DNA of 64,000 nucleotides, taken from the NCBI RefSeq assembly GCF_000331305.1, contig NZ_KB217482.1:124001-188000 (forward strand), read 5' to 3'. A program made the position numbers and the translations under genes. The notes below the pieces were generated by a model. The model was not told where the DNA came from, ran no database searches, and saw only the letters and a list, made by a program, of their open reading frames with translations. Of the stretch, positions 33,915 through 64,000 are shown piece after piece. This DNA comes from Calothrix sp. PCC 7103 (GTDB lineage Bacteria > Cyanobacteriota > Cyanobacteriia > Cyanobacteriales > Nostocaceae). Positions within the stretch are counted from its first letter, which is position 1; the number at the start of each line of letters is the position of its first letter.

Positions 33915-33919
33915 AGCGT

Positions 33920-38916: not shown

Positions 38917-41900
38917 CTAAAGTCGTGATTCTTGCAAACAAATGGCTATATCTTTAACTTCATAAATTCTTAAATTTGGTTTCCACAAACTAGCATCACC
39001 GACTATAATAACTTTGTCCTGTGTTTCATCTATTTTAGTTAGATGAATTTCCAAGCACATGTTAGTTTCACTATGAGGAATTTGACCACGGTATTTCCAA
39101 ATAGTTTTATGGTCTGTTAAGGATGTAAATTGTGGCGATTTTAGATGTTTGCCTAAACCGAGTTCTAATGCATATGCTTGCATCGCCTGGATAATTGATT
39201 CTATACCTAAAGAACCTGGCATTACAGGGTCTAGGTAAAAATGGCATTTAAAGAACCAATCAGTTAATTTAACTTTTTTAGTTGCGTAAATATAACCGTA
39301 GTTATACTTTCCTCCACCTGGGATAATCATAACTTCATTCAGTAAATCTAGTTGGTTATTTGCTAAACGATAATAAGGTTTATCAAAATGATTATGGTAA
39401 TATTTACTACGGCTATCTATAGCTTTTAAATCAATTTTGATTTCGGGTAGCTGCTTGATATTCTCATGCTTGTACCAAGGTTGAATATATCTACCCCTAT
39501 CTAGCCCTATCTGATTTTCTAAAGCTGTAGCGCTAAAATGACCAAAGGTCGCATCTCCTTGATAAAATACTTCCCCATCACAAGACATTTGAAAATCAAA
39601 GCTTTGAATAATTGAACCTTGAACGCTTGCTGAAGATAATAGTTGTGATGTGTTGGTAATAGTTTTTCCTCGAATATCTATATCTTTGATGAGATGACCT
39701 TTCCCATCTAAGTTACGAAAGAATAAGCTCTTATTTGGATACTGTAAAGTACTACCTAAGTAAGCTGAAAGGAAACCACAAGGTTGTAGAGCCATCTCCA
39801 TTAAAATTGAGTAAGGTACATTTGGAGATGAATTTTGGCGATAGTACCAGGGTTCTAAAGGAGTATCATATTCTGTGATTATTGTTGACCCTTTGGTAAG
39901 TTGACGGCGTTGGCCTCGCACTTCTAAAACTCTATGCACCAAATTTAGATGGGTATTAGGCATTCGCGAGGTTTTAATGTTTCCTTGTCCGTAAATTTCA
40001 TATTCCTTACCAAAACACTTAGAAATATCACCTATACAAAACTCACGGATATGTTCTTCATTCAATAAAGCTGTTTTTTCATGATTTGTTTTAGGGAAGT
40101 TAAGAGAAATTTTTTGGTTAGAAGTCGAGTGAAACTGGGTAGGATTATTTTCTGATAATTGCAACCCTAAATCTTGAAAATAAACAATAACTTTATCATT
40201 CAAAATTATTTCAACATTACATTTCGCATAAGGTTTAGGCGCCACGCCAATTTCGGTTACCTCCATCCGATAAATTAACTTGGCTGTCATTGGGGTAACT
40301 TGTCCCCGGCAACGCACTACCTGACGCAAGCCTGGAATTGGTTGAAAACGTGCATCGGTAGTACAAGTCTGTAAGCCTAAATATAAGAGATAAAGTTGTA
40401 ACAGTTGACCACAACCTTCAGCCATCAAAGAACCAGCCATTACTTGGTCGTTTTTGAAGTGGCAAGGAAAATACCAGTCTTCCGGCTCAAGGTCTTTCTC
40501 TGCAATAATTAAACCTAATCCCCAGGCGCCTCCTGTTGGGTCAACTGAAGGAACACGGTCGAGCATTAAAATATTTTTGGGAGGCAGATGTAAGGAAGGA
40601 TTTAAGCCATCTTGTCTATAATGTTCACCAAAACAAGCTGTAACATTTCCTTGTGTTAAAGATAATAAATCGGTAATATCAAAGCTGGTTTTTTGACAGA
40701 TAAGTAATGGCTCAAAGTACTGTTTTTTCACTTGTTTTTTTGCAGCAATTTCTTTTTCAGAGAAAAGAACACCTCTCCCTTGTTCTAATTGCTCATCCGA
40801 GAAGAAGCCAGCACAACCCCCATCCATTTTCAAAACCATCTTATCGCCAACAAAACATTCGTAGCTAAAAAAGAAGAGTAAATTATCTCCACTTTTCACA
40901 AAAGAATTAATTTTGATATCGTATCTAAGGGTTTCTCCTTCCTTTGGCAAATCATCGAGAAACGTTAAGGTACAATCAAGAAGACGATAAACTAGGCGCC
41001 CTTTATTTTCAAAGTCAATTCCTAAATAACTAATTAGCAATAAATCACATTGCCCAGATTCTACGGCGACTGCCCAAGGAATTTGTCTATCAACTGAGTA
41101 CCAAGCATTCTTAGGAATATCATATTCAGTTGTCATCGAACATGATTTAAAAATATCTTTTTTTGCATCTAATTTTGTGACTCTACTAACTAACAAGTAA
41201 GGTGGCATTGGTAGCCTTACTCTTCGGGAGTATGAATCAATAATTTTATATTCCTCACCAAATACATTAGATATTTTACCTTCAGCAAACTCTAGTAAAT
41301 CAGCTTGATTCCAAATACATTGTTTAGATTCTACTGGAGCAGATTGAGATTCGACGATAGAATGCTGGGAGTTAGCTATCTGTAATTGAAATATCTTAAT
41401 ATTTTGTTGCATAGTAGTTTGAGAGAGTTTATGTTGAAAAAAAAGTTTATTTTCTGCTGTTAAGATACTTGGCATAATTCTATTGCCACCTAAAGTAATT
41501 TTTTTGATAAGCGATTTCTTTACTTTTAGATTTTCTGCGCTAGGAGAATAGAGTGGGGATAAGTCTACAGTTATACCATGACTGACTAATTTCGCTAGGA
41601 CTCTGACTATATTGATGTGGTCATTTACTCCTGGGACATTAATGGGCATGGCAACATATTCTTTACCTTTTAAATTTTCTCGAAGCCATCGAGAACAGCT
41701 ATTTTTTGCCCCTAACTCGATAAATATTCTGGCGCCGTCTTCATAAACGCGATTACATATTTTAGGGAAGTCAACTGTTTGACACACAAGTCTGGCAGCA
41801 TTGTTTGCAAGAGTATCGATATCAAGAGAGATAGGAGTTCCATCAATTCCAGAATAAAATTGAATATTTGGCGCCTTGTGGATGGGAATAGTATGGAGTT

Positions 41901-45708: not shown

Positions 45709-45715
45709 AATCAAT

Positions 45716-47044
45716 TTATTCAAATACAATCAAATTAAATTTTCCTGTCCTAGCATCAACATTGAGTGATTCAACTTCCTTTATCTCAAATTTAACATTA
45801 TGCATCTTTTTTTGAGCTAATATTTGCTCTAATTTTTCTTGAATATCTTTCTTTATTTTCAACTTTTTATCTTCAGCAGTACAAGGCTTGGCTATAAAAT
45901 TAAAGATAAATTTTTCAGAATTTACAACTTTAATTTGAAATTTATCAAAATTTTCTATTTCTATAAACAAATCATCCAACATAAAATAAGAAAAAAAATC
46001 AGTTTTGCCATCCACATTTTTAAAGATTGGCATATTGTCATTTCTTCCACAAAACTTTTCAATCTCTATAAACGGGGATTGGCTATCTAAAATTTTTTTA
46101 GGAATGAGAACATCATTCATTTTGTATCGAATGAGTGGCATAGTGTAGTTATAGAGGTTTGTCACGCATAAGTGATCGCTATGGAATTCAAATATTAGAT
46201 CATCCTCAAATAAAGATAAGCAATCGCTATGTATATTACTCATTCCTAAAAGTAGATGTTCGGAACAAGCATAACAATTAATAATGGAAGAATTAAAATT
46301 ATTTTGAATGAAAGTTTTATCCTGTTTCAATAAAACTTCTCCACTGCTTTCAATTACCTCTGGTTGAATCTTTAATTCTCCTTTCTGCTGCTTTTCTGCC
46401 AACAAACGAAGAATTCCTGCATAACTCACAAGAATATCTGGTTGGAATTTATTAAGTTGATTAGCAATATCTTCAAAAGAATCATTGATTTCAAAACATT
46501 GAAGCTGAAACAAGACTTTACTTGCAAAATGTTGGGAACTACTAGCCATACTAATACCTGCGAAGTGTCCTGTCGTTGCAGCAACAAATGCTATCTTTTT
46601 TCTCAAACCAATTGAATGAAACTTCAGACTATGTGCTAATCCTTTTAACCACTCGCGCCGAGAATAAATAAAATAACCAATATTTCCAGATGTACCTGAT
46701 GTAGTAATTACATAATACCGATTTTTGAACAGTTCATTTGGATTAGTTGAATTTGCCAAAAACTTAGCTATCTGTTCTTTAGTAATGTCTGGATTAGTAA
46801 TAATCTCATCAAAATGATTGTTGACGTCGGTCTTTGTTATTTCTGGAAAGTCTAAGGGAGTACAATGCTTAATGTCAATTTTTTGTTCTTGAATAATACG
46901 AGCATAGAAGGGAGAATGTTGATAGGCGAAAGCAACTAACTTTCTAAATTTCTTGATTTGCTTCGCTTGCAGTTGCTTGCGGCTAAGTTTAGTATTAGCT
47001 TTATGTTCTAAAATAGTTTTAGCAAGTGTTAAAAGATGCAGCAT
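45716..47044 (-). CDS. PaaK-like adenylate-forming enzyme
   Basis: 442 aa, the length of phenylacetate-CoA ligase relatives. TTSGTSGNIG (about 113-122) is the ATP-phosphate loop of adenylating enzymes; ACSEHLLLG and YNYTMPLIRYKMNDVL match the later core motifs, and the C-terminal 100 residues are the mobile lid. Such enzymes activate carboxylates as AMP esters for transfer to CoA, to ACP, or to reductases. Because it is co-transcribed with the synthase just downstream, it may prime or release the chain. Substrate unknown. Confidence 0.75.
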   Translation of the reverse strand: MLHLLTLAKTILEHKANTKLSRKQLQAKQIKKFRKLVAFAYQHSPFYARIIQEQKIDIKHCTPLDFPEITKTDVNNHFDEIITNPDITKEQIAKFLANSTNPNELFKNRYYVITTSGTSGNIGYFIYSRREWLKGLAHSLKFHSIGLRKKIAFVAATTGHFAGISMASSSQHFASKVLFQLQCFEINDSFEDIANQLNKFQPDILVSYAGILRLLAEKQQKGELKIQPEVIESSGEVLLKQDKTFIQNNFNSSIINCYACSEHLLLGMSNIHSDCLSLFEDDLIFEFHSDHLCVTNLYNYTMPLIRYKMNDVLIPKKILDSQSPFIEIEKFCGRNDNMPIFKNVDGKTDFFSYFMLDDLFIEIENFDKFQIKVVNSEKFIFNFIAKPCTAEDKKLKIKKDIQEKLEQILAQKKMHNVKFEIKEVESLNVDARTGKFNLIVFE

Positions 47045-47560
47045 TTTTATTTTTCTCCTGATAGTCTTGATACAACGCTTTTATGATTTTCTTATAAAAA
47101 ATTAAAACTTATAAATTTGGTACACTAGTATTAGTGTTTAATTAAGTGCAAATATATTGTTAGATACGCTCTACTTAAAAAATGATTGTATTCAATTTTT
47201 TTAAGATTATCTTTAATTGATGTAATTAGCACTCAGCAAAATCACTGAAAATCAGCTAGAGCGATTAATCTCCCTATATTATCTCTACTTTAGAAAATAA
47301 TCTAGATCGTGGAGGCATGATTATTTTTTTTGTAAGTATAATTTCTTACAAAAAAGTAGTACTAATACATAAGGTTTGCAAAAAAAACTTTACGAAAACA
47401 ATCTAGTACCGCTCGGCGTAAATGTATATACCTTTTTCAAGGGTTATAAACCACAGCTTTTTCGTTGATTCCAATGGTATGCTTACTTGCGCCAAGCGGT
47501 ACTAGACGCATTCAAAATATAAAAAAATGCTTAACGTTTAACACTTTTAATTGGTAACGG
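47045..47560. other. Intergenic interval with an inverted-repeat element
   Basis: 516 bases without gene, strongly AT-rich. 47403-47505 holds a MITE-like inverted repeat (separate entry). The rest probably contains the promoter for the 47044 operon; TTGGTACACTAG near 47116 and several TA-rich boxes are present but nothing decisive. Confidence 0.4.
47403..47505. repeat. 103-base inverted-repeat element (MITE-like)
   Basis: CTAGTACCGCTCGGCG at the left end pairs with CGCCAAGCGGTACTAG at the right (15 of 16), and the pairing continues imperfectly to ATACC/GGTAT. A hairpin-forming non-coding element in the promoter region of the PaaK-synthase operon. Confidence 0.65.
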
Positions 47561-48844
47561 TTAACCAAATGCATCTGGTAATTCGTCTTCTACTAGACGC
47601 AGACGCGGATATGTATAGGCTGCAATCGTTATCACCATTATCAACAAACCCATGACAATAAATAATAGCCCAATACCGCGCCCTTTACCAAAACCAATAA
47701 TGTCTCCCAAACTGTTAGCTAAAAGTCCTCCTTCCATCATGATTGGCTCAAAAAGCCTATCTGCTAATGTTCCAGCCGAAAGATAGGCGAGCGGAAATGA
47801 TAACCAACAAATCATACCTCGCATTGCGAAAACACGTCCTTGTAAATCTGGCGCCACTTTATCCTGCCAAATAGCATGACTAGAACTAATAATGATTGGC
47901 ATACTAAAAAAGCCAATAAAAGCTGCAACTGTAATTAGTACAGGTTCTGGTCGCAAACCCATAAATAAAATAGCAATTCCTAGCAGAAATTCAAAAATGA
48001 ATATTCCATATATTCGACGTTTCATACCTCCCCAAATTATCATAGTCATGCTACCAAATAGCCAGCCGCTACCGCCAATAGACATAATAATTCCTAATAC
48101 TTTAGTATTCGTAAAACTTAATATCATTGGAGTCAGTAAAACCTGAACAATACCAATAAATAAGTTAGTGGAAGTGAAAAAAAACACCATTGCTAACAGT
48201 CCAGGATGTGCTGCAATATATTTCCAACCATAAATTGCCTCACTCCATACAGACCCTTTGGCTAATTCGCCATCTTTACTTTGTTCTGGTTGAGGAAATT
48301 TAATAAATAACAAAGATAATATAGCGAATATAAAAGAGATAAAATCAATAAAAATCACACCATGAACATTAATTATTGCTACTAATAAACCTGCTAATAC
48401 AGGTGAAAAAAGTTGTTCAGCAGCTTTCCCCATTTGAATCATGCCACTAGCCCGACCAAAATGCTGTTTAGGAACAAGTAGGGTCGTACTAGCAAAGTAG
48501 GCATATTCTAGAAAACTTTTACAAGTGGAATGAATCGCCGTCGCTAGATAAATATGCCAGATTTGTAGTTTACCGACATACAATAGTAATACTAAAATAG
48601 CCGTACTGATACCTGCTCCCAAATTACTAACAATCATTACCTGGCGCCTGTCATACCTATCTACAATTGCTCCGGCAATTGGTGCAACAATAGTTCCTGG
48701 TAGCTCTGCAAATAAGTAGATTAGAGCAAAATCAGTAATAACTCCCGTGCTTTGGTATACCCATATACCTAATGCAAAGGCTGTGAGTCCAGAGCCAACC
48801 ATAGATATAAGTTGACCAAACCACATAAAAAAGAAAATTATCAT
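47561..48844 (-). CDS. MFS transporter
   Basis: 427 aa with about 12 hydrophobic helices and the loop-2/3 signature GAIVDRYDRRQVM (MFS motif A, about 58-71). Best fit is the group of drug/macrolide-type exporters of the major facilitator superfamily (enterobactin exporter/MefA type). In this cluster it may export the product or an intermediate or flip a lipid. The N-terminus MIIFFFMWFGQLISMVGSGL lacks the usual charged leader, so the true start could be further upstream of 48844 with a non-ATG codon. Confidence 0.85.
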   Translation of the reverse strand: MIIFFFMWFGQLISMVGSGLTAFALGIWVYQSTGVITDFALIYLFAELPGTIVAPIAGAIVDRYDRRQVMIVSNLGAGISTAILVLLLYVGKLQIWHIYLATAIHSTCKSFLEYAYFASTTLLVPKQHFGRASGMIQMGKAAEQLFSPVLAGLLVAIINVHGVIFIDFISFIFAILSLLFIKFPQPEQSKDGELAKGSVWSEAIYGWKYIAAHPGLLAMVFFFTSTNLFIGIVQVLLTPMILSFTNTKVLGIIMSIGGSGWLFGSMTMIIWGGMKRRIYGIFIFEFLLGIAILFMGLRPEPVLITVAAFIGFFSMPIIISSSHAIWQDKVAPDLQGRVFAMRGMICWLSFPLAYLSAGTLADRLFEPIMMEGGLLANSLGDIIGFGKGRGIGLLFIVMGLLIMVITIAAYTYPRLRLVEDELPDAFG

Positions 48845-48978
48845 GCTGGTTAAATAAATGCTTAAATTGCTTAGGCTTTTCTTCCGATTTGGCTACCCGT
48901 TAAAACATGAACCTGAAAATTAGCTGTTAAATGTCGGATTAAATGAGTTGGAGTGCTAGTATATTTATGCATTAAATA

Positions 48979-50261: not shown

Positions 50262-51881
50262 ATGCGAAAAACTACGTTATTAAAAAATTTACTTAAGAAT
50301 GAATCACTAGAATTTTTAATGGAATCTCACAATGCTATCAGTGCTAAAATAGCTGAGGAAGCAGGATTCAAAGGAATTTGGGCAAGTGGACTATCGATTT
50401 CTGCTCAATTAGGTGTAAGAGATAATAATGAAGCGAGTTGGACTCAAATATTAGAAGTTATTGAGTTTATGTCTGATTCTACTTCAATTCCAATTCTGTT
50501 AGATGGGGATACAGGTTACGGAAACTTTAATAATGTGCAGCGGCTGGTCAAAAAGTTAGAGCAACGTGATATTGCTGGAGTATGTATTGAGGATAAATTA
50601 TTTCCAAAAACTAACAGCTTTATTAACGGCGCCGCCCAACCTTTAGCTGATATTCAAGAATTTTGTGGCAAAATCAAAGCTGCAAAAGATGCCCAAACAG
50701 ATGATGATTTTGTAGTAATTGCGCGTGTGGAAGCATTAATTGCTGGTTGGGGTTTATCTGAAGCTCTCCGGCGCGCGTCAGAATATCACCAAGCAGGGGC
50801 AGATGGTATTTTAATTCATAGTTCAAAGCATACAGCAGATGAAATTTTAGAGTTTAAACAGGAGTGGGGTACCCGCTGTCCGGTAGTAATTGTGCCAACA
50901 AAATATTATACTACACCCGTCCACGTTTTCCGAGATTACAAATTTTCGATTGCGATTTGGGCAAATCAAATGTTGCGTACTGCCATTACAGCGATGAAGC
51001 AGATGGCTGAAAATCTTGCAGCAACAGAAAACATTCTTACCGTTGAAGAATCAATTGTTCCCGTTGCAGAAGTTTTTCGTTTGCAAGGCGCCACAGAACT
51101 TTTGGAAGCAGAAAAGCGTTATTTACCGTGTATTACAGACTCAGTTAGCGTCACTCTTCTAGCGGCTTCACGAGGAATAGAGCTAGGAGAATTAACTTTA
51201 GACTTGCCTAAGTGCATGTTGAATTTATCTGGTAAGCCAATCCTTGGACGGATAGTTGACACTTATCAAACCATAGGTGTCAAAGACATTACCGTAGTTC
51301 GTGGTTACAAAAAAGACATGGTAAATTTGCCTGGTTTACGCTGCGTGGATAATGATGAATTTAGTAATACTGGAGAACTATTGTCCCTATATAAAGGTTT
51401 AGCTTCGGTAACTACTGGCGAAAAAGATTGGATTATCGGCTACGGAGATGTTTTATATAAAAAATATATTTTGCAAATGCTGTTGGAAGCTAACCATGAT
51501 TTAGTCATGGTAGTTGATTCTAAGTGGAGCGGGCGCCCTCATCAAGTCCGACCAGATTATGTGATGAACTCGCTACCAAACTCTCAGCAAACATTTTATA
51601 CCGACGTATATTTCAAGCAGATTGCTTCAAAAATGCCAGTAGAAAATAGATGTGGGATATGGACGGGTCTGCTTAAAGTCTCTCGTATTATGCAACCTGT
51701 GTTATGGGATACACTCAAGATGTTGTTGAATCAGGATGAAATGACAATAGCAGGACGAATGCCAGCATTACTCAATGAGTTAGCAGTATTAGGATATCCT
51801 ATCCACGTCGTTTATATTACTGGTGATTGGCTAGATGTAGACGAAATACAAGATGTAATTACAGCAGGAAACTTTTCATGA
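50262..51881 (+). CDS. pepM: Phosphoenolpyruvate mutase fused to a nucleotidyltransferase
   Basis: 539 aa. Residues 1-290 are a PEP mutase/isocitrate-lyase superfamily barrel: [10 protein letters not shown] (79-88, Mg ligands) and the diagnostic [10 protein letters not shown] at 110-119, which separates true C-P-forming mutases from lyases. It converts PEP to phosphonopyruvate, the entry to phosphonates. Residues about 300-539 are a sugar-type nucleotidyltransferase with [13 protein letters not shown] and LPKCML, the variant loop seen in PEP mutase fusions; it may activate the phosphonate or head group with CTP. First gene of the + strand operon; the stop overlaps the next start (ATGA). Confidence 0.93.
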
Positions 51882-53017
51882 TTGAGGCAAAAGATTTTAT
51901 TCAGGCAGCTTCTTCACGGGGTTTTGGTTTGTATACGGGAGTACCCTGCTCTTTTCTTCAACCGTTTATTAACTACGCAATTAACTCCCATGAACTGCAA
52001 TATATAGGGGCAGCAAATGAAGGAGATGCGATTGCAATTGCTTCTGGTGCAGAATTGGGTGGAGTACGAAGTGTCGTGATGTTTCAAAACTCTGGTTTAG
52101 GAAATGCAGTCAACCCACTGACTTCTTTGAACCAAACTTTTAAAATTCCCATTCTTATAATCGTTACCTTGCGCGGAAACACCCAAGAAGGCGCCGATGA
52201 ACCACAGCACTATCTCATGGGCGCAATAACTCAGCCATTATTGGAATTAATGCAAATACCTTGGGAATATTTTCCAACACAAACCGAGGAAATTGAAACT
52301 GTTCTTGACCGAGCTATAAGTTATATGGAGGAGCATCAACGTCCTTACGCATTGGTGATGAAAAAAGGTTCGGTGTCAAAAAACAGTTTATCAAAAGAAG
52401 TTACTTGCAAGCCCCAACCAGTTAGTAGTGATATAGCAATTAACAAACAAATTTCTGAATATACTCGTAACAACATTTTACAAGCAGTCCAAGCTGCAAG
52501 TCGCTTCACAGACATAATACTGGCAACAACAGGCTATTGTGGACGAGAATTATATGCACTTGCAGACCGAGAAAATCAATTTTATATGGTTGGTTCAATG
52601 GGTTGTGTATCTAGTTTGGGGCTAGGTTTAGCATTAGCTCAACCTCAACGACGAGTAATAGTTATAGATGGAGACGGTGCAGCACTAATGCGATTAGGCG
52701 CCATTTCAACTATCGGTTATTCAAGACCTGCTAATTTATGTCATATTTTATTAGATAACCAGTGCCACGAATCTACTGGGGGACAAGCAACCGTATCTCA
52801 CTCAGTCAACTTCGGTGCCATTGCTGCTAGCTGTGGTTATGAAAACGTCTTGTCAACCAATACTCCAGAAACTGTAAAAGGCTGGCTCCAAAATCATAAA
52901 CAAGGGTTATCATTTTTGCACGTCAAAATTAAACCTGGTACTCCTCAAGGATTACCCCGTCCTGATATTACACCCCCTCAAGTTGCTCAACGCCTACGTG
53001 AATTTATAAATAATTAG
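51878..53017 (+). CDS. ppd: Phosphonopyruvate decarboxylase
   Basis: 379 aa from ATG 51878 ([10 protein letters not shown]), overlapping the mutase stop by 4 bases. A ThDP enzyme with the two halves typical of the family: an N-terminal PYR domain ([20 protein letters not shown] with the catalytic Glu) and a C-terminal PP domain with the ThDP-Mg motif [14 protein letters not shown]...LDNQCHEST (GDG..N). It makes phosphonoacetaldehyde from phosphonopyruvate, pulling the unfavourable mutase reaction forward. A longer in-frame start at 51827 lies inside the mutase and is unlikely. Confidence 0.93.
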
Positions 53018-53031
53018 TTCTCTATTCGCTT

Positions 53032-54135
53032 ATGAAACGTACAATTTTACTTAACCCAGGTCCTGTGATTTTATCAGAAAGGGTTCGCCGTGCCTTATTA
53101 CAAGAAGACTTATGTCATCGGGAACCAGAATTTGCCTCTCTCACCTTAGATATCAAGCATCGTTTAGCTAACGTTTACCCAGAAGCAGCAAGTAATTACG
53201 AAGCCATACTATTAACGGGTTCTGGTACTTGCGCGGTGGAAGCAATGCTTGAGAGCCTTATACCTAAGCAGGGCAAAGCTTTAATTGTTAGCAATGGTGT
53301 ATATGGTGAGCGAATAGCATCTATGGTTTCTGTCCATGCAAAAGCAAACTCAGTTGTTAGTTCTCAATGGCATGAAGCAATAAATTTGCAAAACGTGGAA
53401 AATTGCCTTGCTAACGACCCTGCAATTACCCATGTGATTGCCGTTCACCACGAAACCACTACTGGACGATTAAATAATATTGCAGCACTAGGATTATTGT
53501 GTAAACGCTATCAGGTAGCTTTGTTACTAGATTGCGTATCGAGTTTTGGTGCAGAAGAAATCGCTTTTGCTGATTGGAATTTAGAGGCTTGTGCAGCAAC
53601 CGCTAACAAGTGCTTGCATGGTGCCCCAGGTGTATCATTTGTACTAGTTAAACGAGGAGTTTTTACTGAACGTCCATCAGGCGCCAGTACACTTTATTTA
53701 GATTTGTATCGCTATTACCAAGAACAAAAACAAGGTTATTCTCCTTTTACTCAAGCAGTCCATGTTTATTATGCTTTATTAGAAGCATTAAAGGAATTAG
53801 AAGAAAGTGGAGGTTATCTAGCTCGACATTGTAATTACAAAATTCTTTTACAAAAAATCTATCGCGGATTAAAAGAGTTGGGTATACAACCTTTTCTGGA
53901 TGAACAAGTTACAAGCTGCGTTTTAAGGTCATTTAAGTTACCACTTGGCTATAGCTACGAACAAATGCATGACGGTTTAAAGCAAGCTGGTTTTATCATT
54001 TATGCAGGGCAAGGAGGACTAAAAAATGACATTTTTCGCATAGCTAATATGGGTGATTTACAGTTGGAAGATGTAAATCGGTTGTTAGAGTATTTTAAAA
54101 TTTTGCTTGACCGTAATAGAACTACTTTAATATGA
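53032..54135 (+). CDS. phnW: 2-aminoethylphosphonate aminotransferase
   Basis: 367 aa, class V PLP aminotransferase of the PhnW/serine-glyoxylate type. MKRTILLNPGPVILSERVRRAL is the family N-terminus; GSGTCAVEA binds the PLP phosphate; Asp167 (LLLDCVSSFG) and Lys193 (TANKCLHGAPG) are the PLP ligands. In this setting it works in the biosynthetic direction, from phosphonoacetaldehyde to 2-aminoethylphosphonate. The start follows the decarboxylase stop by 12 bases. Confidence 0.92.
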   Translation: MKRTILLNPGPVILSERVRRALLQEDLCHREPEFASLTLDIKHRLANVYPEAASNYEAILLTGSGTCAVEAMLESLIPKQGKALIVSNGVYGERIASMVSVHAKANSVVSSQWHEAINLQNVENCLANDPAITHVIAVHHETTTGRLNNIAALGLLCKRYQVALLLDCVSSFGAEEIAFADWNLEACAATANKCLHGAPGVSFVLVKRGVFTERPSGASTLYLDLYRYYQEQKQGYSPFTQAVHVYYALLEALKELEESGGYLARHCNYKILLQKIYRGLKELGIQPFLDEQVTSCVLRSFKLPLGYSYEQMHDGLKQAGFIIYAGQGGLKNDIFRIANMGDLQLEDVNRLLEYFKILLDRNRTTLI

Positions 54136-54279
54136 TGTTTAAATAAGATGTAATTACTAAAGCTTATTGTGGAGCAGAGAGCAGCGCTGTGCGAAAGTTT
54201 CCCCTTGAGAGAAGTGGTGTGCGACTGTAGGGTATATTTACCCGCCCTTCAATTATTAAAAAAATAGGTATTTAAATAT

Positions 54280-55023
54280 ATGGCAGTTACAACGGCAGTT
54301 ATTCTTGCGGCTGGGATGGGGACTCGTCTTAAAGAATTAGGAAAATTAGCTCCCAAAGGGTTCTTACAATTAGGCACAATTCCGATTGTAGAAGAGTCTG
54401 TTATCAAATTGCTAGCATGTAATATCCAACGCATCATTATTATTACTGGACATCTATCTGAGTTTTATGAGCAATTACAAAAGCGCTATCCTCAGAACAT
54501 TATTACTATTCATAACCCCAAATATGCTTGCTCAGGTAGTATGTATTCTCTCTACTGTGCCCGTAGTTGGCTTAATGACGATTTTATATTATTGGAATCA
54601 GATTTAATTTATGAGAAACGTGCGTTAGAGAATGTCTTAAACTTTCCTAAAGAAAATGTCATTTTATTGTCTGAAAAGACAAATGCAGGTGATGAAGTTT
54701 ATGTAGAAACAAGTGGTGAAATAATAATTGGAATGTCTAAAAATTTAGAAAAATTTACTAATAAACCTACAGGCGAACTAGTTGGAATTTCTTTAATTTC
54801 TAAATTTTTATTTCAGCAAATGCTTCAATACGCGGAAAATTATTTTAGTCACACCCTTAGTATAGACTACGAAACCGATACATTAGTTTCTATTGCTCAG
54901 TCATATGCTGTTTATTACAAAGTAGCTAGCAATTTAATTTGGGCAGAGATTGATGATGCAAATCATCTTGATAGAGCTAAAAGCTTAATTTATCCAAAAA
55001 TTATCCTTAAAGATATATTCTAA
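54280..55023 (+). CDS. pntC: PntC-like aminoethylphosphonate cytidylyltransferase
   Basis: 247 aa. AVILAAGMGTRLKEL (7-21) is the nucleotidyltransferase signature with the Lys in LAPKGFLQLG; ESDLIYEKRALE carries the metal Asp. It resembles LicC/PntC-type choline or AEP cytidylyltransferases. Following AEP synthesis genes, it should form CMP-2-aminoethylphosphonate. 144 bases separate it from the preceding gene; no terminator is obvious. The relation to the nucleotidyltransferase domain on the mutase is unclear: one may be redundant or act on another substrate. Confidence 0.82.
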   Translation: MAVTTAVILAAGMGTRLKELGKLAPKGFLQLGTIPIVEESVIKLLACNIQRIIIITGHLSEFYEQLQKRYPQNIITIHNPKYACSGSMYSLYCARSWLNDDFILLESDLIYEKRALENVLNFPKENVILLSEKTNAGDEVYVETSGEIIIGMSKNLEKFTNKPTGELVGISLISKFLFQQMLQYAENYFSHTLSIDYETDTLVSIAQSYAVYYKVASNLIWAEIDDANHLDRAKSLIYPKIILKDIF

Positions 55024-55040
55024 TAAAACTAAATAAAAAT

Positions 55041-55715
55041 ATGTCTAAAATTGCTTCTTTTTTCGATATAGACGGTACATTACTTAAAAGTAATGCAATC
55101 GACCACTATCTTTTTCTTAGTCGGCAGAATATTTCAACAATTGCTCAATATAAAGTAATAGCATTGTTAGCGTGCAAAATTCCATATTATTTTTTGCTTG
55201 ATAAGATAAATAGAACTCTTTTTAATCACGCTTTTTATAAGAATTACAAAGGCATGTCAGTAGAGCAAATGGCAGAATTCAGTCACAAATATTTTGAAAA
55301 ACACTTGAAATATTCGATATTTCCATCTGCGAATAATTGTGTTTATCTACATAAACAACAGGGTCACAAAGTAATTTTTGTAACTGGGTCTTTGGATTTT
55401 ATTATTGCACCTTTGGCAAGTTTTCTTGGCGCCGATGCGGTTTTAGCAACAAGTCTGAAAAGTCAGAATGGATGCTATACGGGGGATATTGAGAATTCTA
55501 GCCTCACTGGTCAAGAAAAAGCAAATACCATCAAAAATTTGTCTGCACAATTGACAATAGATTTAAGTCAAAGCTATGCTTATGGAGATAGTGCTTCAGA
55601 CTTTGCGATGTTAAACTTGGTTGGGAATCCTGTTGCGGTTAATCCAGATAACTTTTTAGCTAGAAAGGCAAAAAAGAAAGGCTGGCTTGTTAATAAATGG
55701 AACTTGATTGATTAA
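55041..55715 (+). CDS. HAD-family phosphatase (PSP/IB type)
   Basis: 224 aa. Motif I FFDIDGTLL with Asp9 (nucleophile) and Asp11; motif II FVTGS; Lys in QEKANTIKNL; motif IV YGDSASDFAML. The IB subgroup (phosphoserine phosphatase-like) has a helical cap, present at about 25-95. In a phospholipid context such enzymes dephosphorylate lipid or head-group phosphates; here it could remove phosphate from the acylated glycerol phosphate to give the alcohol acceptor. The exact substrate is inference. Confidence 0.85.
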   Translation: MSKIASFFDIDGTLLKSNAIDHYLFLSRQNISTIAQYKVIALLACKIPYYFLLDKINRTLFNHAFYKNYKGMSVEQMAEFSHKYFEKHLKYSIFPSANNCVYLHKQQGHKVIFVTGSLDFIIAPLASFLGADAVLATSLKSQNGCYTGDIENSSLTGQEKANTIKNLSAQLTIDLSQSYAYGDSASDFAMLNLVGNPVAVNPDNFLARKAKKKGWLVNKWNLID

Positions 55716-55746
55716 ATTATAACAGTAAAATATTCAGGGAACAGTT

Positions 55747-56397
55747 ATGGATAGTAGTAAAACTGTGGAAAAAATTATTCCTAGTATTTTTGAAAGAAAA
55801 TTTGATTTACTTGTTAGTAAAATTTTGTTGCCTATATTCCCTTTATTTGTTAAGCCTAATCATATTACTTTTGCAGGGTTTGCTGGAGGATTATTTGCAG
55901 CACTTTCTTTTTATTTAGCCAGTTGGCATAAAATTTGGTTAGTTGCAGCAGCATTTGGTGTATTTATTCATCTAGTTGCAGATAGTTTAGACGGAGCAGT
56001 AGCTAGAGAACGCAACCAAACATCAACACGAGGTTATTTCTTAGACCAATTCTTAGATATATTATTCTTTGTTGCTATTTGTATATGTATAGGATTTTCA
56101 TCTTACGCTCAGTTTGAAATTGCTGGTTTAGGAGCTATTTTGTATCCTTTTCATATGGTAATCATATTACATTGGATTAATTTAAAAAATCGCTGGCCAT
56201 TTCCTAAATTTGGTCCATTTGAAGGACATGTGTCTTTGATAGCAATAGCTATTTTGACTTTGTATTCTCCTAATACAATTTTTGAATTAAATGGTTTTTC
56301 ATTAGGATGGTTTGATTTAGCTATTGCCTTGTCTACATTTTTTTCTTTTATAGAGCTATTATTTTCGGCATATCAACTATTTCAGGAACTGGACTAA
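55747..56397 (+). CDS. CDP-alcohol phosphatidyltransferase (phosphonolipid-forming candidate)
   Basis: 216 aa with about six TM helices. The full family signature D-x2-D-G-x2-A-R-x8-G-x3-D-x3-D is present (D79, D82, G83, A86, R87, G96, D100, D104). The family joins a CMP-activated group to an alcohol. Directly after AEP and CMP-AEP genes it most likely transfers aminoethylphosphonate to a diacyl- or alkylglycerol-type lipid, as proposed for Treponema phosphonolipids. Last gene of the + strand operon, followed by a hairpin. Confidence 0.88.
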   Translation: MDSSKTVEKIIPSIFERKFDLLVSKILLPIFPLFVKPNHITFAGFAGGLFAALSFYLASWHKIWLVAAAFGVFIHLVADSLDGAVARERNQTSTRGYFLDQFLDILFFVAICICIGFSSYAQFEIAGLGAILYPFHMVIILHWINLKNRWPFPKFGPFEGHVSLIAIAILTLYSPNTIFELNGFSLGWFDLAIALSTFFSFIELLFSAYQLFQELD

Positions 56398-56423
56398 TTA
56401 CACGCTGTAATAGCAGTTCGTAG

Positions 56424-56458
56424 GTTGGGTTACGCGATAGCATAACCCAACGTGTATT
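56424..56458. terminator. Hairpin between convergent operons (dispersed repeat)
   Basis: GTTGGGTTA (56424-56432) and TAACCCAAC (56443-56451) form a perfect 9-bp stem followed by GTGTATTTTT. The same sequence type is widespread in cyanobacteria. It lies between the + operon end (56397) and the - gene end (56465) and is suited to stop both. Confidence 0.65.
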
Positions 56459-56464
56459 TTTGGC

Positions 56465-59155
56465 TTAAAGCAGTATTGCCAGAGATTTTACTGCTTGATA
56501 CAAATGTTCAGTTAAACAGTTTTCTGCTTCTAATCCTCCTTGAGGTGGCTTTATCGGCACCCCAAATGCTATTTGTAGTTTGTAACGTTGTAATTGTTTC
56601 CAATTGAACAAGCTGGGAATAGCACGATGTGGAGGAAAAATTTCATAAGCACCAATAATTCTTACTGGGATAAGGGGAACACCAGTTGTAATTGCCAACT
56701 TGGCGGCGCCTCGACGAAATGGTAACATTGTACCCGTGCGGGTTCTTGTTCCTTCTGGATGAATGAGAAGAGGACGGTTACTACCCAAGGTTTTGGCACC
56801 AGCACGGAGAGTTGGCAGGATATCACCATCACGGTCTGTAGGAATAGCGCAAGCAATTGTGGCTATAAACTTAGTGAATGAATTATTAAAATGTTCTTGT
56901 TTGGCAAAGCAACAAAGACGATTGCGAATTTCTCTAGGTAAGCAAGAAGCAACCCAGAAAATATCGAGGTGAGATTCATGGTTAGGGCAAAGAATAAATG
57001 CTCCCGTTGCTGGAATATGTTCGGTGCCACTTACTTCAAACCGCCAGAAAATTCGTGATATTATCGTAAAAATAGTCAAAGCTAACTTTGCCCAGAAACC
57101 TCGTGGTGCTGGTATAGGTGCTGTGCGCTCTCCCATTAGCAAATCATTTTCTGACGGTGTTTGAGCATTACCAACATTTTCTACACTAATTGCTGTTCGT
57201 ATAACTGCAACTAAATTATCTACGGTATAGATAGTAGGAAGACTCTGCTCAATCAGCTTTATATCAAAAGCATCTTCTAGTTTGAAAGCTAATTCAACCA
57301 AACCAAGAGAATCTATTCCCAAATCAAACTGAAGCGTTGAACTCAATTTCACCTTTGAAAATCCACTAACTGCACTGACTACTGCAATTACCCTTTGATA
57401 AATTTCATCTACCTTTATTTCAGTTTCAGTAGTTTTATGACTTAACTGCGTAGAACTACTTAAAATTTGTCTCAATTCAGTACGCTTAACTTTCAAAGTT
57501 GATGTTTTTGGTAGTTGTTCCAGCAAATGAACCTTTTGAATACGAAGATGAGAGGGTATTTCAGGAGCCAGGTTATTAATTGCAATTTCAATTTCTCCGC
57601 ATCTCTGTTCTTGAGTAAATTTATTGTTAAAAACAGTTTCATTTAAAACCACAGCACAATGAATCTCATCACCACCACCAGTAACTTGTGGTATACCCAC
57701 GACTGCTAACTCTTTAACTCCTGGTAAACCTTGGTAATATTCCTCAATTGTAAGAGGAGAAGCTTTTTTACCTCCCGGAGTGACAATTAGTTCCTTGATG
57801 CGACCAGTAATCAGTAAGTTTCTCTCGGAATCAAAACGTCCCAAATCTCCAGTGTGAAACCATCCATCACGAATAGCTTCCTCTGTTACTTCTATATTAC
57901 GAAAGTAACCCCGCATTAAAGTGTTACCACGCAAGCAAATTTCTCCTTCTCCCGACGAAGGGTTTGGTTGAGATATGCGTATATCAACACCTAGAAAAGG
58001 TTTACCCACATGACCAAGCCTAGACTTTTGTTGGTCGTTACACACAGCAACTCCTGTTTCTGTCAACCCGTAAGCTTTAAGAATAGTAAAACCCAGTCTT
58101 TCTAAACCACGCTCTACTTCTATTGGTAAAGGTGCCGCACCGCAAAAACAGACTTTTAACGAGCCGCCAAAGGTTTGATGCACTTGTCGAAAAAACAATG
58201 AGCCAAAATTCCAAGGGGTGAAAATACAAATACTTTCATTTAAATGTCTCAATATCTTAAAAGCTAGATTTGTTAGTAGACCTTTTGCCTTTACCTGCTG
58301 CATAATTTCTTTATAAAATAATTCAAAAAGGCGAGGTACCCCAGGCAAAATAGTTGTTTGGGTTACTTGCATGGCAGCAATAATTGTATCTCCCCGTACT
58401 TCTGACAAAAAAGTAACCGTTGCTCCTGCAAATAGTGGCGCCAGTAAGGTAGTAATTAGTCCAGCGCAATGATTAAGTGGAAGTACACCAATAACTTGGT
58501 GTTGTTGGTTCTTTAACTTATGAGTAGCATCAACGCAACAATTAGCACTATGAATTAAGCTGCGATGTTCTAGTAACACTCCTTTTGGTTCACCTGTAGT
58601 ACCAGAGGTAAATAAAATGGAAGCAATCTCATCATCTGGGTCTGGAGTTACTTGTATGTTTGAATTTACAATCGCAGGAGTTACCTCAAAACAAGCTAAA
58701 TTATCCTGAATATTAAGCACAGGAACTTCTAATTTTATATTTAATGCCAGCTTTTCGTAAATCCTCGGTGAAGTAAGAATCCCGCGCGGGTCGGAAATTT
58801 TGATTAACTGTACTAATTCAGATGCACTTAAAGTTGGGTCGAGTAACACAATAGTCATTTTGGCAGAAATCCCAGCGAAATAAGCAATTCCCCATTCCGG
58901 ACAATTTTCTGCTATTAAAACTATTCTGTCACCAGTTTTTAAACCATATTCTTCAAGTCGCTTTGCTCCAGATTGGAAGCATTCTACTAACTCTTTATAG
59001 GTATATTTGTTAGTCAATTGACCGTTAGAATGCATTTGCAATGCCACATGTTCTGGGCAAATTAATGACTGATTTTGAACAATTTCATCAATTTTTTTTA
59101 GGTTTTTCATTTTCCAGAAATATAATTTAACAATTGAATATTCTGTATCATTCAT
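56465..59155 (-). CDS. Trifunctional AMP-ligase / ACP / PlsC acyltransferase
   Basis: 896 aa. The ANL adenylation domain spans about 20-560 with ILFTSGTTGEPKG (phosphate loop) and GLTETG; an acyl carrier domain at about 590-660 has the phosphopantetheine Ser in DLGIDSLGL; a PlsC glycerolipid acyltransferase domain spans about 690-890 with NHESHLD (H-x4-D) and HPEGTRTRTG. The natural reading is that an acid is activated as AMP ester, loaded on the internal ACP and transferred to a lysophosphatidate-type acceptor. This places it between the synthase and the phosphonolipid steps. An internal start at 59107 (MKNLKKIDEI) is possible. Its start lies 10 bases after the FAD enzyme. Confidence 0.88.
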   Translation of the reverse strand: MNDTEYSIVKLYFWKMKNLKKIDEIVQNQSLICPEHVALQMHSNGQLTNKYTYKELVECFQSGAKRLEEYGLKTGDRIVLIAENCPEWGIAYFAGISAKMTIVLLDPTLSASELVQLIKISDPRGILTSPRIYEKLALNIKLEVPVLNIQDNLACFEVTPAIVNSNIQVTPDPDDEIASILFTSGTTGEPKGVLLEHRSLIHSANCCVDATHKLKNQQHQVIGVLPLNHCAGLITTLLAPLFAGATVTFLSEVRGDTIIAAMQVTQTTILPGVPRLFELFYKEIMQQVKAKGLLTNLAFKILRHLNESICIFTPWNFGSLFFRQVHQTFGGSLKVCFCGAAPLPIEVERGLERLGFTILKAYGLTETGVAVCNDQQKSRLGHVGKPFLGVDIRISQPNPSSGEGEICLRGNTLMRGYFRNIEVTEEAIRDGWFHTGDLGRFDSERNLLITGRIKELIVTPGGKKASPLTIEEYYQGLPGVKELAVVGIPQVTGGGDEIHCAVVLNETVFNNKFTQEQRCGEIEIAINNLAPEIPSHLRIQKVHLLEQLPKTSTLKVKRTELRQILSSSTQLSHKTTETEIKVDEIYQRVIAVVSAVSGFSKVKLSSTLQFDLGIDSLGLVELAFKLEDAFDIKLIEQSLPTIYTVDNLVAVIRTAISVENVGNAQTPSENDLLMGERTAPIPAPRGFWAKLALTIFTIISRIFWRFEVSGTEHIPATGAFILCPNHESHLDIFWVASCLPREIRNRLCCFAKQEHFNNSFTKFIATIACAIPTDRDGDILPTLRAGAKTLGSNRPLLIHPEGTRTRTGTMLPFRRGAAKLAITTGVPLIPVRIIGAYEIFPPHRAIPSLFNWKQLQRYKLQIAFGVPIKPPQGGLEAENCLTEHLYQAVKSLAILL

Positions 59156-59165
59156 TATTTAAAGA

Positions 59166-60407
59166 TTAAAAAAACTTTTTGACCAAGGCATATGAATATT
59201 CTATTACTCCTTCTACATAAGAAAAATTCAGCAGTTCACCTGTAAAATAAGTATTATTGATTCCTTGTAAACTTTCTAAGCGCTCGTAAAATTTATTTTG
59301 CATAGCTTCAGTGCTTACATGAGGAAAATACTTCCATTTAGCATAAATATATTTTTCTTTTATTGTTGCTCCTATTTTATTTAAATCTTTTATTATTATT
59401 TCTTCTACATCCTCTATTTTTTGTTCATTATTTGCAATTGCATAAAAAATATAAAGATTAATATCTGGATATTTGCGAAACCAACACATAGTATGACCTT
59501 GATTATTTCGAGAACAATTTTCAGGAAAATAACCTCTATCTTTATCAGGCATATTATCTACGATGAAAGCAAAACTATAATATGTATTATAGTTAATTTG
59601 GGAAAATAAGTGTTGTTCTTCTACAGTTGTATCTAAAAAATCTAAGCAATTATCTAAAGGACAAGCTAGAATAAGTTTGTCAAATTTAAAAATTTCATCT
59701 TGAGTAGTAACTTGTATTATTTCATTTCTTTTTATACTTATTATTTCTTGTTTATAGCGAACATCAAACTGTATAGCTAATTTTTTACAAATAGTAGCAG
59801 TACCATCTGCAAATGTAAAAACTTCTTGTTTTAGAATCGCTAATATTATGGACAATTTGAGATATTTTAAATAATATGCTGTCGGAACTTTATCAAAATA
59901 TCCATATCCAAAAGCGCTACAAATAGTATTTGCAAATTTAGCGAACAATTGGAGATTGTTTTTCTCACAGAATGTCTCGAATGATTGATATAAATCTTCA
60001 TAAACATGTTTGTACCCTGGCTGAAATATTTTTCTATATTTTAAAAATAGATATGGCAAAACTATGAAAACTTCCCAGTAAAACTTAATTAAGTCTAATT
60101 TATCTATTAATTTAATCTCAATTCCATTTGTATTTAAAAAAACTCGATTATTCTTTCTTAAAGAAACAACTTTTAATCCTAACTCAGCCATGATAGATAA
60201 AGTGTTTTTATAAGCCGGAGTCAGAAAAACTGCTCCAAGTTCAAAAGGACGATTTTGATAATAAAAAGTATGGCATTTCCCACCGACAATTGCTTCTTTT
60301 TCTAGTAAAGTAATATTTTTATATCCTTTATGTTTTAAAGCCCAAGCTGTACTAAGACCTGCTGCACCAGCACCGATAATACCTATTCTAATATTGCTAT
60401 CTAGCAT
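59166..60407 (-). CDS. FAD-dependent amine oxidase-type oxidoreductase
   Basis: 413 aa. IGIIGAGAAGLSTAWALKHK and LLEKEAIVGGKCHTF are the Rossmann GxGxxG and the flavin second motif of the amine oxidase/desaturase group; FELGAVFLTP and the C-terminal FTGELLNFSYVEG are also typical. It may oxidise or desaturate the chain or a precursor. Same operon as the ligase-PlsC and KR-DH genes (gaps 10 and 26 bases). Substrate unknown. Confidence 0.78.
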   Translation of the reverse strand: MLDSNIRIGIIGAGAAGLSTAWALKHKGYKNITLLEKEAIVGGKCHTFYYQNRPFELGAVFLTPAYKNTLSIMAELGLKVVSLRKNNRVFLNTNGIEIKLIDKLDLIKFYWEVFIVLPYLFLKYRKIFQPGYKHVYEDLYQSFETFCEKNNLQLFAKFANTICSAFGYGYFDKVPTAYYLKYLKLSIILAILKQEVFTFADGTATICKKLAIQFDVRYKQEIISIKRNEIIQVTTQDEIFKFDKLILACPLDNCLDFLDTTVEEQHLFSQINYNTYYSFAFIVDNMPDKDRGYFPENCSRNNQGHTMCWFRKYPDINLYIFYAIANNEQKIEDVEEIIIKDLNKIGATIKEKYIYAKWKYFPHVSTEAMQNKFYERLESLQGINNTYFTGELLNFSYVEGVIEYSYALVKKFF

Positions 60408-60433
60408 TTTTACCCTTTCTCCTTATTAAGCAA

Positions 60434-62734: not shown

Positions 62735-62918
62735 TACAACTTTCCATTCTCGTGATGTAAGTAATTGAGCTAATGCAATACTCGTATCAGTACCATCATC
62801 GGTAACTAAACAGATATAGCCATCAGGTAAACTAAATTCAAGAAAATCTGGCGCCGTTAAAGGTTTAAGCTTGGCTCGACTACGTTGGATATTTTGATAT
62901 TGTTCGATATCTGGTTTA

Positions 62919-62946
62919 GGGACGCAATATATCGCGTCTCTACATT
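62919..62946. repeat. GAGACGCG palindrome inside a coding frame, copy 4
   Basis: GGGACGCAATATATCGCGTCTCT, related to 16382, 21569 and 38771. It is read through in the KR frame as CRDAIYCVP and lies 4 bases from the A-run that breaks the ACP frame. Confidence 0.7.
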
Positions 62947-64000
62947 CTAATTTTTTTTTTCTGGCGCCAGTTGCTTTCCCATGTGCTGAACAATTTCTCC
63001 CAAGGTGCGAAGTTCACCTAATTCTTCAGGGTTAACTGGTGGTAAATTAGAGAATAACTCTTGCATCGCACCCAAAATTTCTACACGCTTAATCGAGTCA
63101 ATACCTAAATCAGCTTCCATATCCATTGAAAGCTCCAACATTTCTGTTGGATAACCAGTTTTTTCGCTGACTACTTGTAACATTGCTTGAGTTAATGGAG
63201 CTAAATCTACCTGCGATGCAACACTCTCGTTGGTGGAAGGTTGGGTAGTTTGTATCTCTACTTTTGGTTCTACTTTTGTTTGTGTTTGTACTTCTTGTGG
63301 TGAGGACTGTTTACCCATATACCCAACAATTTCACCCAAAGTACGTAGTTCACCTAAATCTTCAGGATTAACTGGTGGTGGTAAATTGGGGAATAACTCT
63401 TGCATCGCACCCAAAATTTCTACACGTTTAATCGAGTCAATACCCAAATCAGCTTCCATATCCATTGAAAGCTCTAGCATTTCTGTTGGATAGCCAGTTT
63501 TTTCGCTAACCACTTGCAACATTGCTTGGGTCAATGGAGCTAAATCAATTGCTGCCGTTTGTACTGGCGCCTTTTCTAATACGTGTTGAGAAGTAAAAAC
63601 CTGTTGTTGTAGCGATGCTTCTAGTTTTTCTATTGTAGGTGAAGCGGATGCAATAATTTCTTTAGCATCACTATTATCTTGGATATTTTGGACAAAACTA
63701 TTACTTAAATTCTGATTTAAATTTCCAGTGCTTAATAAAGAATACTGTTGTTGCAAAATTTTAAAAAAATTTTGTGAGTGTGAGTGTTGATTGTCCAAAA
63801 ATTGTTTGTGAACTCGTAAAATTTCCGCTTGATGCTGTTGAAAATGCATCAAAACTTTTTCTAATGAAATTAAAACTTGTTGTTGATGGTCGATAGATGA
63901 TTGTGACATGGTAGATACCTCTGATTCTGTGGTTGATAATTTTGTAATTGGAGTTGGTTGGTTGTTATCTTTAGTTGGAGAATTTTCTTTTTCTGTTCTT
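62947..64000 (-). CDS. PfaA/HglE-type synthase C-terminus with tandem ACPs (5' end outside window)
   Basis: The frame is open to the window edge, so the usual KS-AT part must lie beyond 64000; an internal ATG at 63909 should not be taken as the start. Visible: the linker after AT (QQHQAEILRVHKQFLDNQ), then two nearly identical acyl carrier domains with the phosphopantetheine Ser in DLGIDSIKRVEIL, about 63410-63560 and 63030-63200. The stop TAG is reached at 62947 right after a ten-A run (PEKKN). Multiple identical ACPs with LGIDSIKRVEIL are a hallmark of PUFA-type synthases. Confidence 0.88.
   Translation of the reverse strand, partial: RTEKENSPTKDNNQPTPITKLSTTESEVSTMSQSSIDHQQQVLISLEKVLMHFQQHQAEILRVHKQFLDNQHSHSQNFFKILQQQYSLLSTGNLNQNLSNSFVQNIQDNSDAKEIIASASPTIEKLEASLQQQVFTSQHVLEKAPVQTAAIDLAPLTQAMLQVVSEKTGYPTEMLELSMDMEADLGIDSIKRVEILGAMQELFPNLPPPVNPEDLGELRTLGEIVGYMGKQSSPQEVQTQTKVEPKVEIQTTQPSTNESVASQVDLAPLTQAMLQVVSEKTGYPTEMLELSMDMEADLGIDSIKRVEILGAMQELFSNLPPVNPEELGELRTLGEIVQHMGKQLAPEKKN
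63029..63560. repeat. Duplicated ACP-coding segment
   Basis: About 165 bases at 63029-63194 and 63365-63548 are nearly identical at DNA level, differing mainly at synonymous sites plus a 3-base difference (PPP versus PP). A recent or homogenised tandem duplication. Confidence 0.75.

Follow-up and report, generated by a model that had tools for sequence, protein, structure and literature searches.

A plasmid-borne gene cluster of Calothrix sp. PCC 7103 with a predicted pathway for an aminoethylphosphonate-headed glycerolipid

We analyzed a stretch of 64,000 nucleotides (hereafter the window), corresponding to positions 124001-188000 of contig C11 (NZ_KB217482.1) of the cyanobacterium Calothrix sp. 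PCC 7103, whose genome comprises 11.58 Mb in 12 contigs. The window carries a plus-strand operon for aminoethylphosphonate (AEP) synthesis and, on either side of it, minus-strand genes for a fatty acid synthase of the Pfa kind and for the handling of its acyl chain (Table 1). An original prediction, made from the sequence alone, had named these genes; all of them proved to be uninterrupted and to have family matches (open reading frame list, Pfam and NCBIfam scans), although what had been named as a separate gene for an acyl carrier protein (ACP) at the window edge proved to be the end of a longer gene, which encodes a KS-AT-PilZ-ACP-ACP protein of 1426 aa. With this protein and a PfaD gene, the cluster extends ∼5.5 kb beyond the window. 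Contig C11 is 209,850 bases long, and the 2154 bases at its start recur at its end with 99.6% identity, which indicates a circular replicon of ∼207.7 kb; the cluster thus resides on a circular plasmid of ∼208 kb. The best-supported reading of its gene content is that the plasmid encodes a pathway to a glycerophosphonolipid with an AEP head group, and we consider it on balance probable that the two gene sets contribute to one such product.

The AEP operon has the order PepM, Ppd, PhnW, NT2, HAD phosphatase, and CDP-alcohol transferase, with the HAD gene lying 17 bases after NT2 and 31 bases before the transferase. Part of the searches were run with BLAST on open reading frames that we called ourselves (for two of these only part of the matches was listed), and protein homologues are the best 120 listed. 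At E 1e-60, the PepM-nucleotidyltransferase (NTase) fusion has one match in its own genome. Two further PEP-mutase-family matches, on contig C7, are devoid of the EDKxxxxxNS motif, and one of them carries KKCGH, which we take to be an isocitrate-lyase-type motif. We set aside phosphonate catabolism as the role of these genes, since PepM and PntC would be biosynthetic.

Two nucleotidyltransferases could be considered for the synthesis of CMP-AEP. The structures closest to NT2, 6pd1 and 6pd2, are those of PntC from Treponema denticola, a CTP:AEP cytidylyltransferase with measured activity (PMC6697681, which also treats PepM-NTase fusions). The same source gives the PntC motif as GXG(T/S)R...PK and reports that changing the Arg of the Treponema enzyme to Ala leaves <10% of the activity. 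At E 0.001, the NTase domain fused to PepM had no match among PntC structures; LicC scored best (E 1.4e-5). Among its listed homologues (the best 120 of 8000 scored, window protein included), 109 have Glu, 10 have Gln, and one has Ala at the position of the catalytic Arg, and the Lys is kept in all 120. We therefore set aside the fused domain as the CMP-AEP enzyme, its catalytic Arg being replaced in 120/120 listed homologues; this, together with the PntC match and intact motif of NT2, makes NT2 the likely CMP-AEP-making enzyme, as judged from homology. The fused domain may have taken on a changed, perhaps conserved, role. The CDP-alcohol transferase is closest by sequence to cholinephosphotransferase (CPT1; E 2e-6); structural comparison confirmed the family fold and gave a tie for the fold subclass. 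The NT2 match to PntC, the CPT match, and the fold all support the predicted route to an AEP lipid through CMP-AEP and a CDP-alcohol transferase.

The synthase genes resemble those of Pfa systems, with some departures. The KR-DH protein scores 628 bits against TIGR02813, under the cut-off for whole PfaA, and aligns to its positions 1786-2582, so PfaA is split into two genes; the other part, the 1426-aa protein, passes the model with 1662 bits (cut-off 1010). In the PfaC-like protein, the fused AT region reaches 109 bits to PfaB_fam TIGR02816, under the cut-off of 144. A motif search found DAACAS in both KS proteins, GHSFG in the AT of the PfaA-like protein, YxxxN of the KR, HxxxGxxxxP of the PKS-type DH, and three ACP serines across the cluster. 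It did not find the Rossmann pattern GGxxGxG in KR-DH or the GHSxG pattern in the AT region of the PfaC-like protein, and the strict FabA pattern was found in one of the two FabA domains of the latter and not in the other. The PfaA-like protein has two PP-binding matches, versus the four to six tandem ACPs of canonical PfaA (PMC13291983), which makes the system Pfa-like rather than canonical. By sequence, the domains usual for a Pfa-type synthase are present; these domains and the matches to TIGR02813 and TIGR02814 support the prediction of a dedicated iterative synthase.

Between its AT and ACP regions (residues 901-990), the PfaA-like protein also contains a PilZ domain (PF07238, 42 bits, cut-off 22.5). 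PilZ domains that bind cyclic di-GMP (c-di-GMP) carry two motifs, RxxxR and (D/N)xSxxG, and both are present here, as RHWER and NISSGG. The domain may let the synthase respond to c-di-GMP. PilZ is annotated in three of the best 120 PfaA homologues listed, including the window protein.

Table 1. Genes of the cluster and the ParA gene; coordinates are those of the window unless another sequence is named
Feature	Position	Strand	Evidence
PepM fused to NTase domain	50262..51881	+	TIGR02320 383 bits, cut-off 320; EDKxxxxxNS present
Ppd, phosphonopyruvate decarboxylase	51827..53017	+	TIGR03297 430 bits, cut-off 313; GDG motif
PhnW-type AEP aminotransferase	53032..54135	+	TIGR03301 382 bits, cut-off 361
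NT2, PntC-like CTP:AEP cytidylyltransferase	54280..55023	+	6pd1/6pd2 E 1.6e-53; GMGTR...PK intact
HAD-IB phosphatase, proposed lipid phosphatase	55041..55715	+	TIGR01490 153 bits, cut-off 98; DxDGT
CDP-alcohol phosphotransferase, putatively moving AEP onto diacylglycerol	55747..56397	+	PF01066; DGxxAR...D...D signature
PfaC-like KS-CLF-AT-DH-DH, 2270 aa	38917..45729	-	Pfam KS x2, FabA x2
KR-DH, C-terminal half of split PfaA	60434..62734	-	TIGR02813 positions 1786-2582
PfaA-like KS-AT-PilZ-ACP-ACP, 1426 aa	62947..64000, start outside window at equivalent 67227 (L004:947-5227)	-	TIGR02813
PfaD enoyl reductase	C11:191852-193507 (L004:5852-7507), outside window	+	TIGR02814 671 bits, cut-off 449
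AMP-ligase-ACP-PlsC, proposed acyl loading and glycerol backbone transfer	56465..59155	-	Pfam AMP-binding, PP-binding, Acyltransferase
FAD enzyme, putative isomerase type acting on polyunsaturated fatty acids	59166..60407	-	2b9w group
PaaK/F390-synthetase-like adenylate-forming enzyme	45716..47044	-	TIGR02304 115 bits, under cut-off 252
MFS exporter-like protein	47561..48844	-	MFS_1 93.5 bits; TIGR00900 197 bits, cut-off 320
DUF6962 membrane protein, seven predicted helices	48979..49611	-	PF22285 157 bits
ParA gene	35638-36462		domain scan

The original prediction had called the synthase PUFA- or heterocyst-lipid-type. The PfaA model by itself does not discriminate between kinds of synthase, as a protein from a chromosomal island of the same genome (C7, 1.94 Mb) also passes TIGR02813, with 1741 bits. 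We compared the window with 11 chromosomal islands, which we take, in the absence of a named reference, to be of the hgl or hgl-like kind described in PMC11804610. They contain homologous KS-AT, KR-DH, CLF-AT, and ER genes, but all 10 islands with a CLF-AT-type match are without the FabA-type region; in each, the match extends no further than residue 1465 of 2270. In a tree of 28 KS-AT sequences (which contained no named Hgl reference), the window protein groups with two metagenome proteins (100/100) and then with Nostoc PCC 7524 and Nostoc NMS4 (96/93), whereas the chromosomal islands fall into a clade of their own (100/98); in a tree of 12 PfaD sequences, the window joins PCC 7524 (100/98). 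Based on the FabA-type pair and this placement, the synthase is of the Pfa kind, and the PUFA half of the original description holds better than the heterocyst-lipid half. On the same two grounds, given a tree without a named Hgl reference, we set aside a heterocyst-glycolipid synthase. PMC11804610 places homologues of the transporter genes hgdC and hgdB in hgl islands; no ABC or HlyD domain was detected among the scanned cluster proteins, hgdB and hgdC not having been used as queries themselves.

Myxobacterial Pfa synthases with a fused AGPAT domain have the order KS-CLF-AT-DH-DH and a PlsC-type exit, and are not known to have AEP genes. The window cluster is similar to them in order and in type of exit, but its PlsC is instead fused to an AMP-ligase and an ACP. 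In this protein, the motif search found TSGTTGEPK and the PlsC HxxxxD, and EGTR is visible in the PlsC sequence. From its domain content, PlsC is the likely installing enzyme for the acyl chain, as had been predicted. The adjacent gene, predicted to encode a FAD oxidase, does encode a FAD enzyme, but its nearest structures are 2b9w and five related entries (E 7e-60, residues 4-413; next best E 6e-7). We take this group to be the polyunsaturated fatty acid double-bond isomerase (PAI) of Propionibacterium acnes, although the database names it putative aminooxidase. Homologues of the FAD enzyme at 64% occur in two relatives within the genus, and a stop interrupts one of these homologues. The surrounding 40-52 kb that were read gave no match to Pfa genes in either case; the enzyme is thus not exclusive to the cluster. 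For the PaaK-like enzyme, the NCBIfam matches stayed under the cut-off, and no Pfam match was obtained at E 0.001. Its gene overlaps that of the PfaC-like protein by 14 bases, and it has no match above 100 bits in the PCC 7524 cluster stretch described below.

Taken together, these genes can be arranged into a pathway. PepM would convert phosphoenolpyruvate to phosphonopyruvate, from which Ppd would form phosphonoacetaldehyde and PhnW would form AEP, to be activated by NT2 to CMP-AEP. The Pfa synthase would produce a long polyunsaturated chain in which the FAD enzyme would move a double bond, perhaps to give a conjugated system. The AMP-ligase would load the free acid onto its own ACP, PlsC would transfer the acyl group to glycerol-3-phosphate or lysophosphatidate, and the HAD protein would remove the phosphate to yield diacylglycerol. 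In a Kennedy-type last step, the CDP-alcohol transferase would then place AEP on the diacylglycerol, and the protein of the major facilitator superfamily (MFS) would export or flip the product. In the best reading, this product would be a glycerolipid whose acyl chain is Pfa-derived and perhaps conjugated and whose head group is AEP, with a carbon-phosphorus group taking the place of the customary phosphate. Because the genes for head group and acyl chain are in one cluster, the class of product can be predicted, and the prediction is testable.

Nostoc sp. PCC 7524 possesses a sibling of the synthase cluster, with genes in one row for PfaA, KR-DH, the isomerase-like FAD enzyme, a second FAD enzyme, the PfaC-like protein, HAD, a 2005-aa protein, PfaD, and MFS. 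It is singled out as a hybrid NRPS (nonribosomal peptide synthetase)-PUFA synthase-like cluster in PMC13291983 (JACS Au 2026), in the main text of which the string "phosphon" is absent. Identity to the window is 72-76% for PfaA, 59% for KR-DH, 63% for the PfaC-like protein (across residues 8-2270), 74% for PfaD, 52% for the FAD enzyme, 53% for HAD, and 57% for MFS. The clusters differ in that PCC 7524 has the NRPS exit, the second FAD enzyme, and a GNAT gene, and has no EDK-type PepM and no PilZ listed. The exit resides in the 2005-aa protein (L122:7160-13174), which has the domains AMP-ligase-ACP-condensation-adenylation-PCP-thioesterase and is 49% identical to the AMP-ligase-ACP part of the window protein; the KR-DH protein of PCC 7524 ends in a weak PlsC domain (26.1 bits, cut-off 23). 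With the HAD protein as query at E 1e-5, we obtained a single match in the source genome, in the AEP operon, and a single match in PCC 7524, in the synthase cluster. The presence of this counterpart of a synthase-cluster gene inside the AEP operon shows that the two halves are interleaved, as predicted, and argues for one pathway. The GNAT gene of PCC 7524 lies downstream of the 2005-aa protein and is a weak match to the N-acyl amino acid synthase FeeM.

A second relevant locus is found in Dulcicalothrix desertica PCC 7102 (L117:2003-14074, L007:1514-12901), a genome of the same genus as the source genome. It is similar to the window in PepM-NTase (91% identity), NT2 (64%), CDP-alcohol transferase (46%), and MFS (47%), and in having an AMP-ligase-ACP-PlsC protein (23%) and a HAD protein, the latter being that genome's only match to the window HAD at E 1e-5 (29%, 21 kb from PepM). 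No Pfa gene was matched at this locus; in place of Pfa there are fatty-acyl-reductase-type proteins, a desaturase, and a FAD-linked enzyme matching alkyl-DHAP synthase (AGPS; E 9.5e-152), along with AMP-ligases and a monooxygenase. Ppd and PhnW are truncated, to open reading frames of 76 and 116 aa beside the PepM. A second AEP set on another contig (L119, L120) has both Ppd and PhnW, and no AMP-ligase or Pfa match was found there. Similar assembly enzymes thus recur with another source of chain, that is, with ether-lipid genes. The predicted functions at this locus are mostly those of lipid assembly. Among the independent lines of support for a lipid product, we regard this recurrence as the strongest, and the locus is itself a candidate for the synthesis of an AEP ether lipid in a cyanobacterium.

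The original prediction had proposed a search for the same gene set in other genomes and had named gene sets not conserved together as an outcome that would refute it; in part, this is what was observed. The full combined set was seen in one genome only, with the halves occurring apart; PCC 7524 has no EDK-type PepM in its cluster stretch, and its two genome-wide PEP-mutase-family matches are without the motif; and in four other cyanobacterial genomes with a full-length PepM-NTase (G157, G360, G167, and G125, among 386 sampled), no Pfa match was detected in the 40-50 kb read. These observations weigh against our reading and, like the Dulcicalothrix AEP genes with no Pfa match beside them, favor an alternative in which a Pfa cluster received the AEP operon by insertion on the same plasmid, the operon making an AEP conjugate of its own (with ordinary diacylglycerol or a glycan) and the Pfa genes a separate lipid. 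We nevertheless consider two such unrelated neighbors unlikely. The HAD counterpart of the synthase cluster sits within the AEP operon, an MFS protein is common to all three clusters (window, PCC 7524, and Dulcicalothrix), and PlsC is fused to AMP-ligase-ACP where PCC 7524 has its NRPS module. Moreover, Dulcicalothrix pairs AEP genes and a CDP-alcohol transferase with AMP-ligase-ACP-PlsC, HAD, and MFS, so that both loci with the 91%-type PepM carry an AMP-ligase-ACP-PlsC protein, though these are only 23% identical.

By analogy with the amide expected from the NRPS of PCC 7524, the AEP amine could instead be acylated by the polyene chain, perhaps via the PaaK-like enzyme, to give an exported N-acyl AEP or a lipopeptide-like product. 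The condensation-adenylation-PCP-thioesterase end of the sibling cluster fits this idea, as do the MFS exporter and the spare adenylating enzyme of the window; but no condensation domain or N-acyltransferase was found among the scanned cluster proteins, and the presence of a PntC-like NT2 and a CDP-alcohol transferase suggests that phosphorus carries an ester, so that we judge such a product improbable. That the cluster is a recent plasmid mosaic, broken or silent and without product, seems to us highly improbable: its mixed strands and split PfaA, and the loss of most of Ppd and PhnW from the Dulcicalothrix AEP operon, would agree with decay, but all named genes of the window are open, most of the checked motifs are present, and relatives of PfaA and of AMP-ligase-ACP-PlsC exist in metagenomes at 75-78%.

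Returning to the AEP-headed glycerolipid, a wider model can be sketched, which we offer tentatively and regard as rather doubtful: a modular system for lipid synthesis that combines a single Pfa-type core with interchangeable exits (NRPS in PCC 7524, PlsC and the AEP operon here), with an exported, plasmid-encoded, c-di-GMP-controlled phosphonolipid with a conjugated polyene chain as product, and the AEP ether lipid of Dulcicalothrix as a second form. The predicted phosphonolipid pathway of the window would join two fields that are usually separate: secondary lipid synthases (treated in PMC3098273), many of whose products are unknown, and bacterial phosphonate tailoring, whose acceptors are mostly unknown. 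The cluster also provides a natural test case for the exchange of exit modules on a synthase of the PUFA type and a candidate for a synthase under c-di-GMP control. With its two nucleotidyltransferases, it can further help to decide which of the pair makes CMP-AEP in such clusters.

The statement that no cyanobacterial pathway of this kind had been described was too strong, as clusters for AEP phosphonolipids had been proposed earlier in lichen Nostoc, together with a homologue from Burkholderia (PMC5987646). Those clusters likewise bring together genes for pepM, ppd, AEP aminotransferase, NTP transferase, and CDP-alcohol transferase, and differ by the hpnL and OG-Fe(II) genes given in the figure legend of that paper. 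The Burkholderia homologue is 26% identical to the window in the NTase and 32% in the CDP-alcohol transferase. For the combination of AEP genes with a Pfa synthase, we found no description in the open-licence literature. In Mycetohabitans and Roseomonas (L038, L040), we observed PepM-NTase, Ppd, aminotransferase, NTase, and CDP-alcohol transferase genes near hopanoid genes; terpene-linked phosphonate clusters have been proposed in Acetobacteraceae (PMC8776678).

AMP-ligase-ACP-PlsC was matched in 2/217 genomes of the family at E 1e-70 (the source genome, and PCC 7524 by the ligase-ACP part only) and in 1/386 genomes of the phylum at E 1e-100, cut-offs at which distant forms are missed, such as that of Dulcicalothrix, which was found by reading the neighborhood. 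The CDP-alcohol transferase was matched in four of the 386 phylum genomes at E 1e-8, a search that missed distant transferases seen by motif beside PepM in G360, G167, and G125, and in two of the seven genus genomes at E 1e-10. In G360 (L031:15407-18552), the AEP genes are adjoined by another CDP-alcohol transferase, a methyltransferase, and an Fe-ADH_2 protein, presumably glycerol-1-phosphate dehydrogenase-like. Searches of plasmids with AMP-ligase-ACP-PlsC and PepM-NTase gave only distant matches among the best 20 listed; at the Ilyobacter and Rubrobacter loci, the annotation showed neither Pfa nor AEP genes over a distance of 12 kb. In the lists of metagenome homologues, some contigs agree in length (11,352 for a PfaA and an AMP-ligase-ACP-PlsC, and 9,631 and 19,294 for two pairs that include PepM-NTase), a hint of linkage, though chance alone should produce such agreements in lists of this size.

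The DUF6962 membrane protein was found above the family cut-off in two of the 120 genomes searched, including the source genome, and its single-sequence structure model is of low confidence (pLDDT 48.7). A scan for Pho boxes gave one match versus 2.4 expected, and one for NtcA boxes gave 18 versus 12.3 expected, a number reached in 9/100 shuffles. Elsewhere in the window, an Eco57I-type methylase and a XamI-type endonuclease form a pair at 32322-34660, adjoined by a 676-aa pentapeptide protein (30100-32130).

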